From Candidatus Saccharimonadota bacterium (lineage in GTDB: Bacteria; Patescibacteriota; Saccharimonadia; Saccharimonadales; Saccharimonadaceae): a stretch of 33,228 nucleotides of DNA. Positions within the stretch are counted from its first letter, which is position 1. Each line of letters begins with the position of its first letter. A program made the position numbers and the translations under genes. The notes below the pieces were generated by a model. The model saw only the letters and a list, made by a program, of their open reading frames with translations, had not been told where the DNA came from and ran no database searches. Positions 7,657-16,326 of this stretch are shown here, piece by piece. Where the stretch lies: the NCBI GenBank assembly GCA_027312165.1, contig DAICXN010000007.1:1-33228 (forward strand), written 5' to 3'.

Positions 7657-8307
7657 ATGGATTTACAGGGTATATTGACAGTTTTCGGGGTAATACTAGT
7701 GTCAATGACGCTTCATGAGGCGATGCACGCCTTCATGGGCTATTTTCTTGGCGATGATACGGCTAAGACCGAGGGGCGCTTGACGCTAAATCCGCTCAAG
7801 CATATTGACCCGTTTTTAACCATTTTGCTGCCTTTGGTGTTAGCGATTATGGGCGGTCCAATATTCGGTGGTGCAAAGCCGGTGCCTTTTAACCCTCATC
7901 GATTGCGCTACGGTGAATGGGGTGCGGCCCTGGTCGCATTAGCTGGTCCGCTGACGAACTTATTGATTGCCTTTTTTGCCTTTGGAGTGGGGGTGGTTAC
8001 GGGTGTAATTTCTGCGTCCGGCATTGAGAATACGCCCCTAGGAGTGGTTGTCTTAACGACGATTAGCGTGAACCTCGGGTTCTTTGTCTTTAATATGCTG
8101 CCAATACCGCCGCTAGACGGCTCTCGGGCTCTATACGCCTTGGCGCCTGAAGTGGTGCGTAGGGTGATGGAGCGGATTGAGCAGTACGGCCTTTTTGTGG
8201 TATTTGCAATAGTGCTACTAGGCGGATCGCTGATCGGTGCGATTATGTCGACATCAATTCAGTCAATCATTAGCCTATTTGAATTCATATTTCGTTTAGG
8301 TGTATAA
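7657..8307 (+). CDS. Site-2 protease family (M50) membrane metalloprotease
   Basis: The 216-residue integral membrane protein has the M50 signature LHEAMHAFMGYFLGD near residue 20 (HExxH zinc site). A second conserved motif, NMLPIPPLDGSRAL, near 147-160 supplies the third zinc ligand (Asp). Hydrophobic segments at about 5-22, 50-70, 88-115, 125-150 and 178-205 fit the short Rv2869c/SpoIVFB-like group without a PDZ domain. It cleaves substrates within the membrane; the target is unknown. The gene is monocistronic with a probable leaderless start. Its stop codon overlaps the -10 of the candidate RNA gene that follows. Confidence 0.88.
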   Translation: MDLQGILTVFGVILVSMTLHEAMHAFMGYFLGDDTAKTEGRLTLNPLKHIDPFLTILLPLVLAIMGGPIFGGAKPVPFNPHRLRYGEWGAALVALAGPLTNLLIAFFAFGVGVVTGVISASGIENTPLGVVVLTTISVNLGFFVFNMLPIPPLDGSRALYALAPEVVRRVMERIEQYGLFVVFAIVLLGGSLIGAIMSTSIQSIISLFEFIFRLGV

Positions 8308-8308
8308 T
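8279..8308 (+). promoter_or_regulatory. Promoter of candidate RNA 8315-8466
   Basis: TTGAAT (8279-8284), 18-bp spacer, TATAAT (8303-8308), located inside the 3' end of the protease gene. The expected start is about 8315. Confidence 0.6.
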
Positions 8309-8314
8309 AAGAGT

Positions 8315-8466
8315 AGCCCTAGGCGGGCGCTGGGCACATATGATTTTCCTAACATCATATGATAGGGAGCTTTAATGATTCATTGCTGTTGCAATGTTTT
8401 GCGAGCACCCACCTTGCAGTTATGCGGGGAATATCACGTGTTCGGCAAGCGTTCTAGGGCTTTTTC
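8315..8466 (+). ncRNA. Candidate structured noncoding RNA with paired ends
   Basis: There is no ORF between the protease and tRNA-Pro, but the sequence has the layout of a stand-alone RNA gene. A promoter is at 8279-8308. AGCCCTAG at the predicted 5' end is exactly complementary to CTAGGGCT at 8454-8461, followed by TTTTT. Inside, CGCT can pair with AGCG and GGGCAC with GTGTTC, extending the terminal helix. A perfect hairpin CATATGAT/ATCATATG has a 9-base loop (about 8337-8361), and CATTGC/GCAATG with loop TGTT is a second. The length is about 150 nt. The SRP GGAAG/GCAGC signature is absent, and I do not recognise the family. An alternative is a complex terminator for the protease gene. Confidence 0.5.
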
Positions 8467-8488
8467 GTATATCTATAGGGAGATTTAT

Positions 8489-8565
8489 CGGGGCGTGGCG
8501 CAGTCTGGTAGCGCGCACGGCTGGGGGCCGTGAGGTCGCTGGTTCAAGTCCAGTCGCCCCGACCA
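8489..8565 (+). tRNA. tRNA-Pro (anticodon GGG)
   Basis: A 77-nt cloverleaf. Acceptor stem CGGGGCG pairs with CGCCCCG; anticodon stem CACGG/CCGTG with loop CTGGGGG gives GGG; T arm GGTTCAAGTCC; discriminator A and encoded CCA. The next coding sequence starts 12 bases after the CCA with no terminator between, so the tRNA and a mRNA are probably made as one transcript. Confidence 0.95.
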
Positions 8566-8577
8566 CAAGAGAAAAAT

Positions 8578-9450
8578 ATGATCCAAAGAATATCAGTTAG
8601 AATACGTTTAATCAGTGACGACCGAACGCTGCTGGTTCGCCGAGCGGAAGGGCGTCCTTCTATTTTGGGAAAATATGAACTACCGGGCGGACGAGTGTTG
8701 GCGTCTGAGCAGCCTGAAGATGCCGCGCGCCGCTACCTGGAGTCTAGTTTAGGAATAGTTGATCGATTAAATTTGCAGCTCGAAGATGTTGTAACCTATA
8801 CAGACAGTGACGACCGAACAATTCAATACGCAGTAATTGTCTACCGAGCTTTTATAGGAAAGAAGAAAAGGGGCATAGTGCTCAGTGGTCACTATGATAA
8901 ATACGTTTGGTATAGTTTTGGTAAGCTAGACACCGCGGCAATAACCGAAGTCAGCCAGTTGGTACTTGGGGCCAACTCCTCGCGCGCAGCAGATAGCCTG
9001 GATGATACCCGCGAGAACTCTGGGGCGAGCGGTGGAAGTACTTTGGTAGTTTACTCCGATGGGGGTTCCAGGGGTAATCCCGGTCCATCGGCGGCAGGCT
9101 ATGTCATCCTGCGGGGCGATCAGGTTATTGATCAGGGCGGCGAGTATTTGGGCATAACCACCAACAATCAAGCTGAGTACCATGGGGTGCGGTTGGGTCT
9201 TGAGGCGGCAGTGCGCTTAGGAGTCGATGAGGTAGAGGTGAAGGTAGACAGTATGCTTGTGGCCAACCAACTCAAGGGTGTGTACAAGATAAAAAATCGT
9301 GAACTATGGCCGGTTAACGAGCGAGTAAGGGATTTAGTAGCTCATTTTAAGAAAGTTAAGTTTACGCATGTGCCGCGAGAGATGAATAGGCTGGCTGACG
9401 GTATGGTCAATCGAACACTCGATCAGCAAAAGAGCTTGAACGTGATATAA
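8578..9450 (+). CDS. Fusion of an inactive-looking NUDIX domain and an RNase H domain
   Basis: ATG 8578 is the first plausible start after tRNA-Pro (upstream ATGs lie inside the tRNA), giving 290 residues. Residues 1-130 have a NUDIX fold: LISDDRTLLVRRAEGRPSILGKYELPGGRV and a box starting at Gly38. Aligned to GX5EX7REUXEEXGU, Gly38, Glu44, Arg52 and Gly59 are kept, but the three Glu of REUXEE are Tyr53, Ser56 and Ser57, so metal binding and hydrolysis look lost. After a Ser/Gly linker (about 131-154), residues 155-283 form an RNase H type I domain of the short bacterial type with all four acidic residues: Asp161 (YSDGGSRGNPGP), Glu200 (NNQAEY), Asp224 (KVDSML) and Asp274 (ADGMVN). I infer cleavage of RNA in RNA-DNA hybrids, with the NUDIX part binding nucleotide or protein. 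Confidence 0.8.
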   Translation: MIQRISVRIRLISDDRTLLVRRAEGRPSILGKYELPGGRVLASEQPEDAARRYLESSLGIVDRLNLQLEDVVTYTDSDDRTIQYAVIVYRAFIGKKKRGIVLSGHYDKYVWYSFGKLDTAAITEVSQLVLGANSSRAADSLDDTRENSGASGGSTLVVYSDGGSRGNPGPSAAGYVILRGDQVIDQGGEYLGITTNNQAEYHGVRLGLEAAVRLGVDEVEVKVDSMLVANQLKGVYKIKNRELWPVNERVRDLVAHFKKVKFTHVPREMNRLADGMVNRTLDQQKSLNVI

Positions 9451-9451
9451 T
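9446..9451 (+). promoter_or_regulatory. -10 element of rnpB
   Basis: A perfect TATAAT overlapping the stop codon of the upstream gene; the expected start is near 9458. The -35 region is weak. Confidence 0.55.
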
Positions 9452-9457
9452 TTTTAT

Positions 9458-9796
9458 AGCAGTCCACTAGGTGATCGCTTGGCTTGGGTCAAGAGGAAAG
9501 TCCGGGCAGTGTAGGACAACGACAGTCGCTAACAGCGACCGGAGGTGACTCTAGGGAAAGTGCCACAGAAACGAAACTACCCCGATGCTACGGTGTCCGG
9601 GAAAAGGTGAAACGAGTGAGGTAAGAGCTCACAGTCTGCCATGGTGACATGGCGGAGAGGTAAACCCTGTCGACTGCAAGGAGGTCTGCATAAAGAGCTG
9701 TCCGCTCGCAGGCCGATAACCGCTTGAGTCATCTGGTAACAGGTGAATTAGATAGATGATCGCCCTCGACAGAACCCGGCTTATCGGTGGGCTGCC
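9458..9796 (+). ncRNA. rnpB: RNase P RNA
   Basis: The sequence carries the conserved RNase P RNA blocks: GAGGAAAGTCCGGGC near 9494, GGGAAAGTGCCACAGAAA near 9555, AAGAGCTCACAG, and the 3' block GACAGAACCCGGCTTATC. The 5' and 3' segments pair (GCAGTCCACTAGG with the GGTGGGCTGCC end), as in bacterial class A RNAs. It is the catalytic RNA that matures tRNA 5' ends. The exact ends are inferred from the -10 element and the terminator. A strong symmetric terminator follows directly. Confidence 0.93.
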
Positions 9797-9839
9797 AAGT
9801 AAAAACCCGCATCTTCTCGAAAGAGGCGGGTTTTTACTT
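9797..9839. terminator. Long bidirectional terminator between rnpB and rplT
   Basis: AAGTAAAAACCCGC pairs with GCGGGTTTTTACTT, with the intervening bases partly paired. The A/T flanks allow termination from both sides of this convergent junction. Confidence 0.9.
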
Positions 9840-9854
9840 GTAGTTAAAGCTGTA

Positions 9855-10199
9855 TTAGGCCACTGCTTCTTTAACGATAGCGGCAAAGGCCTTTGGCTCC
9901 TTGACGGCAATTTCAGCTAACACCTTGCGGTCAAGCTCAATGTTCTTGGCCTTGAGGCCGGCTATAAGCTTGGCGTAGGTTGTGCCTTCTTGTCTGGCTG
10001 CTGCGTTGATACGAGTGATCCAGAGAGCACGTAGATCGCGCTTCTTGTTTCGTCGGTCGCGGTAGGCGTACTGTAGGGCGCGAATAACACCCTGTTTGGC
10101 CATGCGGAAGCTTCGGGTGCGGTTGTGCTGCATACCCTTAGCTGCTTTAAGGATTTTTTTGTGCTTTGCTCGAGCGGTAACGCCTCGTTTTACTCGCAT
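9855..10199 (-). CDS. rplT: 50S ribosomal protein L20
   Basis: The 114-residue basic protein starts [20 protein letters not shown] and contains [37 protein letters not shown], the L20 signature. L20 binds 23S rRNA early in large-subunit assembly and in many bacteria represses its own infC-rpmI-rplT operon. It is the last gene of that operon here, four bases after rpmI, and ends at the terminator shared with rnpB. No L20-binding pseudoknot was recognised in the short leader. Confidence 0.96.
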
Positions 10200-10203
10200 A
10201 GAA

Positions 10204-10398
10204 CTATACTCCTAGGGCTCGTTTGGCATTTTTTGCCATTGAGCCGGTTACGGTTGCTGGTTGATTGATGGCGCGCTTTCGGCTTTTCGACTTTTTGGCT
10301 AGCATGTGACCGCCAAATGCGCGACGTCGGGTTAGTTTGCCAGAGCTGGTCAGCTTGATTCGCTTGGCAGTGCCCTTGTGGGTCTTTAGTTTCGGCAT
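10204..10398 (-). CDS. rpmI: 50S ribosomal protein L35
   Basis: The 64-residue protein has the L35 pattern: [42 protein letters not shown]. It lies between infC and rplT in the conserved order, and its ATG overlaps the end of infC. It is a small basic large-subunit protein. TAAGGAGTAAATA before the ATG supplies a good ribosome site. Confidence 0.96.
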
Positions 10399-10904
10399 TA
10401 TTTACTCCTTATTACCACGCTCAGATTGCGTCCTGCCATCTGAGGTTGCTGTTCAACAATTGCTTCCTCGGAGAGCATTTCGGTGATTTTTTCCATCAGC
10501 GCGTATCCGATCTCTTTATGGGCCATCTCGCGTCCTTTGTAGACTACTTGTAGGCGGACCTTGTTGCCGTCGGCCAAAAAGCCACGGACTTTGCGGAGTT
10601 TGACGTCGAGGTCACCAGAGCCAATTTTGAGCCCGAATCGCATTTGCTTAAGATCGCTGGTTTTGGCTGCACGTTTGCTGCGCTGCTGATCCTTCATCTT
10701 TTGATACTGGTACTTACCCCAGTCAATGATTTTTGCTACGGGCGGGTTAGCGTCGGGTGAAAATTCCACGAGGTCTAATCCTGCTTCTTCGGCGGCTCGC
10801 AGGGCATCACTTAGTGACATGATACCTAGTTGTTCGCCGTCTGCGCCAATAACGCGCAGTTCGCGGGCACGGATTGCTCCGTTGATACGGGTTGATTTGT
10901 TAAT
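10398..10904 (-). CDS. infC: Translation initiation factor IF-3 with an AUU start codon
   Basis: The first in-frame ATG (10820) would cut off the start of the N-domain. The frame continues upstream and encodes INGAIRARELRVIGADGEQLGI, the conserved IF-3 N-terminus. The start I choose is ATT at 10902-10904, preceded by AAAGGAG at a spacing of 9; no ATG, GTG or TTG fits. AUU is the known start codon of infC in E. coli and many bacteria, where IF-3 represses its own synthesis by rejecting non-canonical starts. The product is 168 residues: N-domain, the lysine-rich linker KYQYQKMKDQQRSKRAAK, and a C-domain with FGLKIGSGDLDVKLRKVRGFL. It is the first gene of the infC-rpmI-rplT operon. Confidence 0.95.
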   Translation of the reverse strand: MNKSTRINGAIRARELRVIGADGEQLGIMSLSDALRAAEEAGLDLVEFSPDANPPVAKIIDWGKYQYQKMKDQQRSKRAAKTSDLKQMRFGLKIGSGDLDVKLRKVRGFLADGNKVRLQVVYKGREMAHKEIGYALMEKITEMLSEEAIVEQQPQMAGRNLSVVIRSK

Positions 10905-13159: not shown

Positions 13160-13348
13160 ACCCCTATAATAAGCTGTGAAAACGTTTATGTCAACACTTT
13201 TTCAAGTAATATTTAAGTAAAAAATACTACGATTTTCTCTAGTTTCTGTGGATAACTTTTATGCTCGATTATATATTTTGGGTAGTTAGCGTGACTGTGA
13301 TTAGATGGGGCGCTATATGTGTATTATTTGTCTAATTTAGGCAGGGGC

Positions 13349-13510
13349 TTACGAGTCAACCCAACTGTCGTTGGGGCTGCCGCTCGATTGAGTGGCGGGC
13401 TGTTCTTTGTTGTTTGACGACGCTATGACCTGATTTGCTATACCATCTTGAGTAACTATGCAGTTGGCCAGGGTGGTCACACCGATTGCCAATAGCACCG
13501 TGATAATCAC
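13349..13510 (-). CDS. Small membrane-anchored protein, 5' end unclear or damaged
   Basis: From GTG 13508-13510 the frame gives 53 residues: a hydrophobic segment, MIITVLLAIGVTTLANC, then a polar Ser/Asn/Gln-rich tail ending SWVDS. This would be a signal or anchor followed by an exported tail. The start is uncertain: GTG has no ribosome site. A promoter (TTGTCA, 16 bp, TAAAGT) and a strong AAGGAG lie further upstream at 13550-13585. At the right distance from that AAGGAG is ACG, not ATG, in another frame that ends after seven codons. Removing one base from the AAAA run at about 13528 would join that frame to this one. This suggests a decayed gene or sequence errors. No family recognised. Confidence 0.35.
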   Translation of the reverse strand: MIITVLLAIGVTTLANCIVTQDGIANQVIASSNNKEQPATQSSGSPNDSWVDS

Positions 13511-13598
13511 TGAGACTAAGCTACTCTTTTGATTGCTTTAGCGTCTGAAACTCCTTAGTGTCCACTTTAGCAAATTGAATATAGCTGACAAGTTTAAT

Positions 13599-13621
13599 GC
13601 CCCGGCATGGTTAGCCGGGGC
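13599..13621 (-). terminator. Hairpin after the 83-residue gene
   Basis: GCCCCGGC, 7-base loop, GCCGGGGC: a very stable stem 18 bases after the stop codon. There is no proper T-run, so it may stabilise the 3' end or terminate inefficiently. Confidence 0.5.
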
Positions 13622-13638
13622 GGGGTCGCAGGTGCCTG

Positions 13639-13890
13639 TTACCTGTAGTGGGGAGGTTCGGGTACGATGCCTCCGCGGGTGCCACCCTCGACGAGCTTGT
13701 CATTGGGCTGGACACTGGGGTGATTGTGAGTGACATATGTCTCCCGTGGGGACATGAGTCGTATCACCCATCTCTTTAGTCGCCCCGTCACCACAAGGGC
13801 ATACATTCTGACGTCGGCAATGAGTGTGCCGTCACCCGTGGGGTGATCTTGCGAAGCACCTTTGCTTCGGTTATCCAGGGGATGTTCCAT
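13639..13890 (-). CDS. Unknown 83-residue protein
   Basis: The ATG at 13890 has AAAGGAAGG a few bases upstream, and a promoter lies at 13931-13959. The predicted protein is polar and Pro/His/Arg-rich (starts MEHPLDNRSKGASQDHPTGD, ends VPEPPHYR) with one moderately hydrophobic stretch (VRMYALVVTGRLKRWVIRLM). I do not recognise a family. It is one of several short, separately promoted minus-strand genes between ssrA and the secretion genes. The hammerhead-like RNA lies 84 bases upstream of its ATG, so the ribozyme may act on transcripts reading into this gene. Confidence 0.6.
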   Translation of the reverse strand: MEHPLDNRSKGASQDHPTGDGTLIADVRMYALVVTGRLKRWVIRLMSPRETYVTHNHPSVQPNDKLVEGGTRGGIVPEPPHYR

Positions 13891-13930
13891 GGCCTTCCTT
13901 TCTCTGATAGGCGCACCTGTAACCTATATC

Positions 13931-13959
13931 ATTAAACGGTATTTATGATAAAAAGTCAA
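13931..13959 (-). promoter_or_regulatory. Promoter of the 83-residue gene
   Basis: On the minus strand: TTGACT (13954-13959), 17-bp spacer, TTTAAT (13931-13936). It begins 15 bases downstream of the hammerhead core. Confidence 0.65.
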
Positions 13960-13973
13960 TAGTTAAAGTGTTT

Positions 13974-14030
13974 GGCCTTTCGTCCTTTTGGACTCATCAG
14001 CATAGCTACGACAGCTATGGAGGCTATACC
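13974..14030 (-). ncRNA. Hammerhead ribozyme (type III topology)
   Basis: Read on the minus strand, every core element is present in order. The 16.2-17 triplet CUC has its cleavage C complementary to 14020. Stem I is CAUAGCU (14013-14019) and AGCUAUG (14001-14007) around loop GUCGU. CUGAUGA is at 13994-14000. Stem II is GUCC, AAAA loop, GGAC (13982-13993). GAAA is at 13978-13981. Stem III is GCC upstream with GGC downstream, plus the required A15.1-U16.1 pair. The predicted cut is between 14020 and 14019. Stems I and II are closed and stem III is open, so this is type III. Stem III has only three uninterrupted pairs beyond A-U, extended by interrupted pairing (GGUAU with AAAC). It lies between two minus-strand genes. 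Activity is inferred. Confidence 0.85.
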
Positions 14031-14091
14031 ATCAGTCCGCCAGTGAGGGGTCTAGGCGGAGGCGGGCATGGCCACACCCCCGCCTGGACTT

Positions 14092-14571
14092 TTATCGCGA
14101 CAGACGCCAAACGACCCTGCTAATCTCGGTCACGCCTTTTTCTGTCAGCTGGTAGCCGGCCGAAAAGATGGCTGCTTCGATCTCCATCAGGAGCCTTGCC
14201 TGGGCCCTTTTTAGAGCCTGTCTCATCTCATTTCCGGCCCTGGCAATCTCCCAGGCGTTTTTCGGACCATCTAGATAGATTGTTAGGGTGTTGGTGTGTA
14301 CGTGCACCAAGTCAACCCCAAGGTCTTCACGAGTCACCTTTTCAAGTAGCCGGTAGAGTAGGGGGTTGGTGTCAAGTAGGTTCTGGCGGTGGCTGTTGTG
14401 CGGGCACCACCTTTCATGGCGGACTCGAACAGACAGCGATCTGTCGTCGGTGGCGGAATATATATCTTCCGAAAGCGTGATCACTAGGGCGTTTGCCCAG
14501 TGCAGGACTCGAACAGACAGGTCGATTGACCTAACGGGTGTCTCTGGCCGCGCCTTCTTCTTTGTAGACAT
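14092..14571 (-). CDS. Unknown 159-residue protein, distant paralogue of the 14783-15292 product
   Basis: The promoter at 14641-14669 puts transcription inside the first upstream ATG (14640), so I choose ATG 14571, the next one, with a purine-rich GAAAGAAG stretch before it. The protein starts MSTKKKARPETPVRSIDLSV. It is mixed and soluble-looking, with a segment NPLLYRLLEKVTREDLGVDLVHVHTNTLTIYLDG (about 85-118). This segment aligns by eye with TPLLKHVLRNFFPNDNGIEQIDVRTHQLVFRCNN in the neighbouring gene, which also shares length and strand. A helical, Arg/Ala-rich C-terminal part follows. No known domain recognised. A GC-rich hairpin and the hammerhead RNA follow its stop codon. Confidence 0.65.
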   Translation of the reverse strand: MSTKKKARPETPVRSIDLSVRVLHWANALVITLSEDIYSATDDRSLSVRVRHERWCPHNSHRQNLLDTNPLLYRLLEKVTREDLGVDLVHVHTNTLTIYLDGPKNAWEIARAGNEMRQALKRAQARLLMEIEAAIFSAGYQLTEKGVTEISRVVWRLSR

Positions 14572-14640
14572 AGCCCAACTTCTTTCACTTGGCGGATGAT
14601 GGTGCTTACTCAGGCCCAATAAATGGGCGAGTATTCGCAT

Positions 14641-14669
14641 ATCATAGTACTATAAAAAATAAATGTCAA
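14641..14669 (-). promoter_or_regulatory. Promoter of the 159-residue gene
   Basis: On the minus strand: consensus TTGACA (14664-14669), 17-bp spacer, TATGAT (14641-14646). The predicted leader to ATG 14571 is about 60 nt. Confidence 0.75.
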
Positions 14670-14716
14670 TTAAAAGTATGTAAAGACGAGCCCTGGCTCG
14701 GGTGAGTCTTAGGTTA

Positions 14717-14774
14717 CTTCATCAATCCATCCATTGATGTGAAGGTGGGGGTTGAGGCTGTCTCACCCCCCACC
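14717..14774 (-). repeat. Two adjacent inverted repeats after the 169-residue gene
   Basis: AGGTGGGGG and CCCCCACCT (14743-14774) form a long G/C stem, extended by TGAG/CTCA. Next to it, CTTCATCAAT and ATTGATGTGAAG (14717-14744) form a second hairpin. Neither has a clear T-run; they separate the two paralogous genes and may act as 3'-end structures. Confidence 0.6.
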
Positions 14775-14782
14775 TCTGCTAG

Positions 14783-15292
14783 CTAGGCCAGCTCGACATC
14801 ATAGCCAGCAGTCTTTGCGGCCTCTAGGATCACCTCAATTATTACCGAGGGATTGGTGGTGTTGTTGCACCGAAAGACGAGTTGGTGTGTCCTGACGTCG
14901 ATTTGCTCGATGCCATTGTCGTTGGGAAAGAAGTTCCTGAGGACGTGCTTCAGTAGGGGCGTATCTAGCCGATCTCTTCGGTAGCCGCTATATGCGTTGA
15001 CCGAGAAGCCACCGGAACGTCTTGAGTGAAGCTGGCGGTCAGTAGACAGCACGATAATGCGCTGGCCAGTTTCGTGGTTGAGGCCGGAGTCCGATGCCAG
15101 ATCGATCATCACTGTTTCTTTTCGGGGAACGTGAACGATTTCGTTACCACCAAAGGTAGACACTTGCTCTTCTCTTTCTGTGGATGGATTGATGTGAATT
15201 TTAGCAGGCAGACTGCAGATTTGGGTGCAGCCCCTTGGCACTTCTTGGGGCCTCGGGACTGCACGATATATATATGAACTAGCAACGGTCAT
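14783..15292 (-). CDS. Unknown 169-residue protein, distant paralogue of the 14092-14571 product
   Basis: ATG 15292 is chosen because it overlaps the stop of the 61-codon gene by 14 bases, which suggests translational coupling; longer forms need a TTG inside that gene. The protein starts MTVASSYIYRAVPRPQEV. It has a central region (ETGQRIIVLSTDRQLHSRRSG) and a C-terminal region with TPLLKHVLRNFFPNDNGIEQIDVRTHQLVFRC followed by a helix (SVIIEVILEAAKTAGYDVELA). That C-terminal region resembles the product of the next minus-strand gene. No catalytic motif or membrane segment is evident and no family is recognised. Two stable hairpins follow the stop. Confidence 0.6.
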   Translation of the reverse strand: MTVASSYIYRAVPRPQEVPRGCTQICSLPAKIHINPSTEREEQVSTFGGNEIVHVPRKETVMIDLASDSGLNHETGQRIIVLSTDRQLHSRRSGGFSVNAYSGYRRDRLDTPLLKHVLRNFFPNDNGIEQIDVRTHQLVFRCNNTTNPSVIIEVILEAAKTAGYDVELA

Positions 15293-15464
15293 AGAGAGGG
15301 TACTGCGACTGCAAGATGCTCCTCTCGCTGGCTGACGCGCCGGTCTCGATGACAAGCTTGTCGGGATCCTCGTTGGGCCGAAGGGGATTGTTCATTGTGC
15401 TGACGCGATCAGCAAAATCCTCAAACCTATCAATGTCTCGAGGATCGAAGGATGTTTCGCTCAT
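15279..15464 (-). CDS. Unknown acidic 61-residue protein
   Basis: The ATG at 15464 follows AAAGTGAGA at a plausible spacing, and a TTGACA promoter lies about 110 bases upstream (15551-15579). The product (starts MSETSFDPRDIDRFEDFADR, ends YPLYDRC) is short and Asp/Glu-rich with no membrane segment. It is probably the first gene of a two-gene unit with the 169-residue gene, whose ATG overlaps its 3' end. Such small acidic partners are sometimes antitoxins or anti-repressors, but nothing in the sequence shows this. Confidence 0.5.
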   Translation of the reverse strand: MSETSFDPRDIDRFEDFADRVSTMNNPLRPNEDPDKLVIETGASASERSILQSQYPLYDRC

Positions 15465-15550
15465 ATGGTTCTCACTTTCGCGATAGTCTGGCCTGCTTGC
15501 TTATGTGCAACTAGTAAGGCAGGTGGTCCAGCCTTTGACTAGTAATTATA

Positions 15551-15579
15551 ACTATGCAGTATATGGTTGTTTTTGTCAA
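15551..15579 (-). promoter_or_regulatory. Promoter of the 15464-14783 gene pair
   Basis: On the minus strand: TTGACA (15574-15579), 17-bp spacer, CATAGT (15551-15556), with an additional TATAAT just downstream. Confidence 0.5.
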
Positions 15580-15599
15580 CGCTAATGTTAAGAAAGTCT

Positions 15600-15853
15600 C
15601 TCGGCTGATGCGGCCGACTAGCGAGCGACGGATTGACTGGCGGGCGAGGCGAAATATCTAGCAATAATGGTTTCGCGATACCGTAAAATTCAGGCGTTGT
15701 CAGAAAAACTGCCCAAACAACGTACATATAATAGCTATGATATTGTAATAAAAACAACATAGGTATAGTATCTGACTGTGTTAATAACAGATGATAATTT
15801 TTACAACAGTGCTATTATTGTAAATATTACATAAAATATTCATGCTCAGGCTC
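15600..15853. other. AT-rich gene-free stretch
   Basis: No credible gene. The first 70 bases are GC-rich; the rest is AT-rich with several TATAAT-like words. An ORF of 73 codons on the minus strand (15539-15760) has no ribosome site and overlaps the TTGACA promoter, so I do not call it. Confidence 0.5.
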
Positions 15854-15882
15854 TTGACCAAAATTAAAGCTCATGCTAATAT
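15854..15882 (+). promoter_or_regulatory. Promoter of the structured RNA / secretion gene leader
   Basis: TTGACC (15854-15859), 17-bp spacer ending in ATGC, TAATAT (15877-15882). The expected start is about 15889. Confidence 0.7.
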
Positions 15883-15889
15883 GAAGTCA

Positions 15890-16230
15890 CGCTTTTGATA
15901 AAAACAAAAAAGCCAAAAACCTTAACAAAAAAGAATCGTTCAACCACCAATGAATGATTCGGCAGAATCGATCGGCTGCGATAGCGCTGAGCACTTAGCC
16001 TGCTGAAGGCTACTATGCTCGCCCATGGCAGCCAATGAAGCTCTGCCGACATTTGGTCGGTATCGAGCGCGTGTGGTCTAGTACCACGCACCCAGCAAAT
16101 CCTTGACAACCTTTGGCAGCGATAAAACTGGGTGTGTGAGGAACGTCACACAAGGACTATGCTCCTGAAAAGGAGCGGTCAGTTGCCTTGAGCGGCAGGT
16201 CGAACCCTGGCACCCGCGCCTAATAGTTAT
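15890..16230 (+). ncRNA. Candidate large structured RNA upstream of the secretion genes
   Basis: After the promoter there are about 65 A-rich bases, then about 275 nt dense in nested stems. The first domain is a rod: GGCAGA with TCTGCC outermost, then GGCTGC/GCAGCC, GAGCA/TGCTC and TAGCC/GGCTA at the tip (15960-16042). Next come CCGAC/GTCGG, a GTGTGGT/ACCACGC hairpin, and a large domain closed by ACCCAG/CTGGGT. Then come TGTGTGA/TCACACA, CTCCT-GAAA-AGGAG (GNRA loop), and TGCC/GGCA. No ORF, T-run terminator or known riboswitch core was found. It could be an independent RNA processed at its 3' end, or a roughly 440-nt leader of the gene at 16327. SRP, RNase P and tmRNA signatures are absent. 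Confidence 0.55.
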
Positions 16231-16326
16231 TTATAGCGGCGGATGGTGTGCTATCTGGTTCATTTATGGCTTGTCGCTCGGGCTCTCTTGAATCGCAGCG
16301 AGTGAGTGTGAGATAGTGAGGAAGAT

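Follow-up and report, generated by a model that had tools for sequence, protein, structure and literature searches.

The window, a stretch of 33,228 nucleotides from a Candidatus Saccharimonadota contig, carries a genuine hammerhead ribozyme on its minus strand; the identity of the motif is near certain and its self-cleavage is inferred. This copy is a member of a large, apparently undescribed hammerhead family of ultrasmall (CPR) bacteria, whose representatives commonly lie behind genes and next to a hairpin. We hold it more probable than not that the ribozyme makes a hairpin-protected 3′ end for an accessory-gene mRNA, with cleavage in the cell, protection and purpose all inferred and with no transcript or cleavage data.

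The window motif and its locus

The features discussed below are listed here. R1 and R3 are covariance models built, respectively, on 34 family members and on 22 other members with the window copy left out.

13974 to 14025, minus strand: type III hammerhead ribozyme (span of the R1 and R3 models), supported by fold, leave-one-out covariance model and family covariation
14019 to 14020, minus strand: predicted cleavage site 3′ of C17 (14020), from the H17 position in the family alignment; cleavage is predicted only
14050 to 14089, minus strand: strong hairpin between stop codon and ribozyme (GUCCAGGCGGGGGUGUGGCCAUGCCCGCCUCCGCCUAGAC), without a U-tract, from folding
14092 to 14571, minus strand: gene for a 159-aa ORFan with the ribozyme at its 3′ end, extendable to 182 aa (14640)
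14641 to 14669, minus strand: TTGACA-17-TATGAT, a sigma-70-like promoter ahead of the 159-aa gene, with 11 of 12 consensus matches (consensus match only)
13931 to 13959, minus strand: promoter-like TTGACT-17-TTTAAT between the ribozyme and the 83-aa ORF, found by eye
13639 to 13890, minus strand: 83-aa ORF downstream of the ribozyme, without known family
13259 to 15784, no strand assigned: accessory insertion with the ribozyme and small ORFs

Along the minus strand from 14024 to 13975, the parts of the motif follow in the order GCCU (ending in U16.1), C (position 17), CAUAGCUGUCGUAGCUAUG, CUGAUGA, GUCCAAAAGGAC, GAA and AGGC (beginning with A15.1). No catalytic position is missing, as the CUGANGA ... 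GAAA core is found in order by sequence, scan and model. Moreover, U16.1 pairs with A15.1, and the cleavage-site nucleotide H17 is C, i.e. not G. Stem I has seven perfect pairs (CAUAGCU and AGCUAUG around GUCGU), which are counted in the family alignment as six pairs and the loop UGUCGUA. Stem II has four pairs (GUCC/GGAC), including G10.1-C11.1, with the loop AAAA, and stem III has four (GCCU/AGGC) followed by an A-C mismatch. Stems I and II are closed by loops and stem III is open, which makes the motif a type III hammerhead. The minimum free energy structure of 13970-14036 (-) is exactly the hammerhead fold, at -16.5 kcal/mol; the folding energy itself is unremarkable (z = -1.35).

The R3 model finds only one match in the window, the hammerhead, at 62.3 bits and an E-value of ~3e-19, which is rough because the calibration was short. 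Public models perform poorly on the same site. Rfam searches at gathering and relaxed thresholds returned only a sub-threshold RF00008 match, misaligned in stem I and scoring 20.2 bits against a gathering cut-off of 48.5 bits, and none of 10 tested family loci reaches any gathering cut-off of the Rfam 15 hammerhead models. We regard the RF00008 miss as a limit of the public model rather than a biochemical criterion; the new covariance model recovers ribozymes that escape Rfam at present.

The ribozyme is present as a single copy in its own 665-kb genome, where the next best R1 match has E = 2. It lies within the accessory insertion, whose flanks (the tmRNA side and a block before a 127-aa gene) are conserved in genomes of the same genus. 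These genomes keep the order YifB, tmRNA region and 127-aa gene, and the distance from YifB to the 127-aa gene is ~1.7-1.9 kb in them versus 3.8 kb in the window. The protein encoded upstream of the ribozyme has no Pfam, PHROG or PADLOC match, and homologue searches of 197 other genomes of the order, of phages and of IMG/VR came back empty; the gene therefore gives no clue to its function. Weak similarity (BLASTP E = 6e-4 over 52 aa) links two ORFans encoded in the insertion, at 14783-15241 and 14092-14571 (-), which are perhaps old paralogues. Separately, the noncoding block at 15785-16290 (+) before the 127-aa gene is ~70-78% alike in aligned pieces from same-genus genomes. Rfam searches up to E = 1 return nothing for it, and inverted repeats are abundant by eye; it is a possible structured RNA of unknown kind.

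Spread and covariation of the family

A blastn search of 101 genomes (its own and relatives) with a 111-nt query gave 40 matches in 23 genomes, centered on the ribozyme. Of 295 genomes in the Saccharibacteria order, 79 have R1 matches, representing 59 of 143 genera with 1-19 copies per genome, as do 26 of 287 genomes sampled over the phylum. When the exact family pattern was sought in 84,980 GTDB genomes, 100 stretches were recovered, nearly all under Patescibacteria names. The positive groups are Saccharibacteria and the Kaiser-, Nomura-, Shapiro-, Ames-, Collier-, Woese-, Gottesman-, Berkel-, Buchanan-, Azam-, Wolfe-, Colwell-, Uhr-, Taylor- and Pacebacteria. Matches outside Patescibacteria come from two MAGs (one Phycisphaerales, one Polynucleobacter) and from some unnamed bacteria; because the genomes are mostly MAGs, an isolated odd assignment may reflect a binning error. 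This distribution indicates that RNA predicted to cleave itself is widespread among the tiny genomes of the Candidate Phyla Radiation.

Phage contigs in IMG/VR also carry family members, located between co-directional genes ~33 nt past a stop and ~26 nt ahead of the next start. Only short partial matches were found among the named phages searched for this ribozyme. One group of IMG/VR phage contigs (L036, L051, L069, L072 and L088) has several family hammerheads between small genes, and three of these contigs (L036, L051 and L088) have in common a homologous protein of 367-373 aa (MCVIIIKQ...).

Family members resemble known type III hammerheads (RF00008; viroid/satellite and bacterial) in their catalytic core, three-stem junction with an open stem III, closed stems I and II, U16.1-A15.1 pair and cleavage after H17, which is predicted here. 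They nevertheless form a distinct compact lineage, with a stem I of 6 bp capped by UGNGUR and a stem II of 4 bp, mostly GUCC/GGAC, capped by NAAA, that is concentrated in Patescibacteria and falls below the Rfam 15 cut-off at all 10 loci tested. Both loops are conserved, as a possible contact between them would require.

The pattern used to assess covariation prescribes the core, stem II and a portion of loop I but places no constraint on stems I and III. In its 103 distinct matches, stem I, represented by 73 different 5′ strands, is paired at 617 of 618 positions (mean of 336 and maximum of 370 in shuffles), and stem III outside 16.1 is paired at 380 of 412 positions (shuffle maximum 208). 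Two further positions are not fixed by the pattern: 16.1 is U in 103/103, and 17 is C in 71, U in 20, A in 12 and G in none. An alignment of 127 members, which was fitted to the structure by the model, shows both-sided changes in 13 of 15 pairs. The case for hammerhead identity thus rests on the fold, the leave-one-out model, the compensatory changes of stems I and III across genomes, the invariant U16.1 and the absence of G17.

Comparison of orthologous sites provides additional evidence of conservation. Identity is 98% in the ribozyme versus 57% between stop codon and ribozyme for one pair of loci (L190/L246), and 84% versus 37% in the surroundings for a second (L180/L232), where the stem I changes are compensatory. 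For a third pair with homologous upstream proteins (L173/L189), the ribozyme is 70% identical and its flanks 41-44%. This better preservation of the ribozyme indicates that single copies stay in place.

Most of what the initial annotation claimed from sequence alone was upheld. It had described a complete minus-strand core (confirmed by sequence, scan, fold and R3), a 7-bp stem I, a 4-bp stem II with G10.1-C11.1 and a short stem III, all of which held, and a cleavage position at 14020/14019 (-), which stands as a prediction. Its judgment that a chance occurrence was very unlikely agrees with the E-value of the window-free model, and its accessory region corresponds to the insertion at 13259-15784, absent from aligned same-genus loci. 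A promoter placed 15 nt downstream held only in part, since the element at 13959-13931 is plausible by eye and fails a strict scan. Both of its proposed computational checks were run. The search for compensatory changes in relatives was positive, with stems I and III covarying across many genomes (stem II being fixed by the pattern). The Rfam check was sub-threshold (20.2 versus 48.5 bits), and the annotation's proposal to treat a missing covariance-model hit as refutation would have been wrong, because the Rfam model misses a real site. Its remark that it was aware of no hammerhead reported in this phylum met no contrary paper in the open-access literature searched.

Type III hammerheads in bacteria and phages were already known, and single members of this family may already appear in early metagenome inventories of hammerheads. 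However, the open-access literature that we searched holds no paper linking hammerheads with Saccharibacteria or Patescibacteria. Nor does it describe a Patescibacteria-wide family missed by Rfam with a strict 3′ position and a joined hairpin; subscription papers and preprints were outside the scope of this search.

Position behind genes and the adjoining hairpin

The upstream gene is on the same strand in 101 of 122 intergenic Patescibacteria copies, compared with 42% expected from other gaps within the same loci (p = 5e-20). Gene calls came from our own simple caller, and the 21 exceptions may be partly gene-call errors because 16 of them have an ORF on the same strand that terminates just upstream. 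The distance from stop codon to ribozyme has a median of 93 nt (IQR 65-126). Where only one neighbor is co-directional, it is the upstream gene in 29 copies (with a convergent neighbor downstream) and the downstream gene in 10. A same-strand gene also follows in 82 of the 122 copies, and isolated single copies between housekeeping genes are common.

Segments between stop codon and ribozyme fold strongly, with a median z of -3.96 and 77% below -2 (n = 94), versus 29% both for the 90 nt behind other genes and for the 100 nt after the ribozyme. Where folding is strong, the median length of the main hairpin is 23 bp, and its end lies a median of 3 nt ahead of the ribozyme. A U-tract follows the hairpin in 12 of 72 family cases versus 72 of 589 control genes, a near-background frequency; the hairpin is therefore no ordinary intrinsic terminator. 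The 67-nt 3′UTR in the window (MFE -32.3 kcal/mol, z = -2.16) is less extreme than most members.

Hairpins of most Patescibacteria copies are unrelated to one another. The exception is a common module of ~140 nt, GAGCGAAUGUGGCAAGUGGAUAUGGGUU ... AACCCCAUGUCUGCUUGUCAUAUUCGCUC-ribozyme-GAAAGCGAA, found at eight loci behind unrelated genes in several Saccharibacteria genera, with similarity ending sharply on both sides. RNAalifold predicts for this module a hairpin of 25 bp, the 3′ arm of which extends to U16.1 and thereby overlaps the 5′ strand of stem III; because GCGAA occurs at both module ends, this strand has two competing partners. With R2, a model of this module, scores exceed 85 bits at 13 places in 6 genomes, and the weaker matches in many other genomes are mainly to the ribozyme part. 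The window ribozyme has its own hairpin, distinct from this module.

Pairing of the cleaved tail back into the upstream hairpin is clear only in the shared Saccharibacteria module; as a general property it is unsupported over all loci (18% versus 13% for permuted tails). Presence of the module in viruses was also rejected, as 17-mer matches in IMG/VR are chance occurrences and none is followed by a ribozyme. One Saccharibacteria locus (L392, G188:C6:134000-152000) carries an array of hairpin/hammerhead modules at 7700-10500, in which one copy has a changed core (UUGAUGA) and some hairpin copies lack a hammerhead.

Proposed function, alternatives and cargo genes

The role of bacterial hammerheads has been described as an open question (PMC6155905). 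The constant anatomy of gene, hairpin and ribozyme in dozens of independent places makes it testable whether this ribozyme is a maker of mRNA 3′ ends. The motif, its covariation, its distribution, its 3′ position and the hairpin are shown, and everything past a real ribozyme in a 3′UTR is inference. In the reading we favor, transcription would proceed from the promoter at 14669-14641 through the stop codon at 14092 into the hairpin and then the ribozyme. Cleavage after C17 (14020) would give the mRNA a defined 3′ end carrying a 2′,3′-cyclic phosphate, the hairpin beside this end would withstand 3′ exonucleases, and the cut would detach the message from anything downstream. Throughout the family, the arrangement would be a ribozyme-made stand-in for an intrinsic terminator or 3′-processing site of Patescibacteria accessory genes. 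An intrinsic (rho-independent) terminator likewise has a hairpin just past the stop codon and yields a hairpin-ended mRNA. However, the window has no U-tract, and the end in this family would come from self-cleavage, with a cyclic phosphate left behind.

The weak points of this reading are the modest hairpin of the window (z = -2.16), the short stem III (4 bp) and the phage copies, which are intergenic within one transcript. Among three functions suggested in the initial annotation, defining a 3′ end is the one backed by family context. Cutting a read-through transcript is still possible and overlaps with 3′-end formation, and a circular or mobile RNA is weakened by the single genomic copy and by the failure to find RtcB in 101 relatives.

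A bolder version, which we think rather more apt to be wrong than right, holds that hairpin and hammerhead together form a dedicated, portable 3′-end maker in Patescibacteria, with strand exchange after cleavage in the Saccharibacteria version. There, the 3′ arm of the hairpin overlaps stem III, and the new 3′ end would zip into the 25-bp hairpin. Such an exchange would free the product, block religation and seal the mRNA end.

The main rival to 3′-end formation, which remains possible and could coexist with it, is processing: the ribozyme would cut long co-transcripts into single-gene messages, the 3′ location simply following from intergenic placement. Since 82 of the 122 copies also precede a same-strand gene, such cutting of polycistronic or read-through RNA cannot be ruled out. 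This rival is supported by the phage contigs with family members between co-directional genes and by the ribozyme arrays of some Saccharibacteria, and it was proposed for prophage hammerheads by Perreault et al. 2011 (PMC3088659). Opposing it are the 29 Patescibacteria copies with a 3′ relation only versus 10 with a 5′ relation only, the common isolated copies between housekeeping genes and the apparent promoter of the next gene in the window. Hammerheads are known to flank ORFs for small non-conserved proteins (review PMC6155905), and prophage arrays (PMC3088659, PMC6155905) share with this family the proximity to small ORFans or mobile genes and the serial copies. In Patescibacteria, however, the distance from gene to ribozyme is fixed, a long hairpin lies immediately next to the ribozyme, and many copies are single and chromosomal.

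A second alternative, which we consider unlikely, is that the hairpin and hammerhead serve primarily at the DNA level, as a cassette end resembling attC or REP, with the ribozyme as a by-product. In its favor are the ~140-nt module, which has sharp ends and recurs across genera with unrelated genes in front of it, the ORFan-like cargo and the hairpins without an intact ribozyme in G188. Against it stand the signs of selection on RNA (exact catalytic core, U16.1, no G17 and compensatory stem changes) and the unrelated hairpins of most Patescibacteria copies. Mobility by REP/Y1 transposases was rejected, as Y1 is missing from 20 of 22 genomes checked, and by eye the shared module has no obvious attC-type GTTRRRY/RYYYAAC ends.

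A retrozyme- or viroid-like element, in which cleaved unit RNAs are ligated into circles, is very unlikely. Retrozymes and viroid-like circular RNAs also use hammerheads to define RNA ends, and tandem same-strand copies flank genes in L171, L172 and L392. The window locus, by contrast, has no repeats and no repeated unit beyond the ribozyme, and the one copy in its genome leaves no direct-repeat hammerhead pair around a unit. RtcB, the ligase for 2′,3′-cyclic phosphate and 5′-OH ends, was found in none of 101 Saccharibacteria genomes (control genomes were positive), making circles by this route unlikely. Finally, a chance match or a decayed inactive motif, suggested by the sub-threshold Rfam score, short stem III and folding z of only -1.35, is all but excluded by the intact catalytic positions, the 40 related blastn matches in 23 of 101 genomes and the window-free E-value of ~3e-19, which already refutes chance.

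The ribozyme may be used as a tag for accessory genes, some of which match anti-defence or CRISPR-linked families (Tad4, Csx3). Genes upstream of family ribozymes mostly encode small, ORFan-like proteins unrelated to each other. A scan of 78 such proteins matched few families: Tad4 (Thoeris inhibitor, 3), Csx3, NUDIX, DUF2807, glycosyltransferase and MoxR/VWA. Genes resembling Tad4 (type I Thoeris inhibitor) are directly followed by a hammerhead in two Saccharibacteria chromosomes (L174, 9214-9549 (-); L184, 6441-6848 (-)). Tad4 was rejected as a systematic partner because only 6 of 295 genomes of the order carry it, making it one cargo among many. A Csx3-like protein precedes a hammerhead at another locus (L226, 2956-3258 (-)). 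At L175 (6383-7353 (-)), a hammerhead-tailed gene encodes an 81-aa protein of ubiquitin- or MoaD-like appearance and adjoins a possible E1/ThiF-like gene (by eye), and related proteins in L228 and L245 are hammerhead-tailed too.
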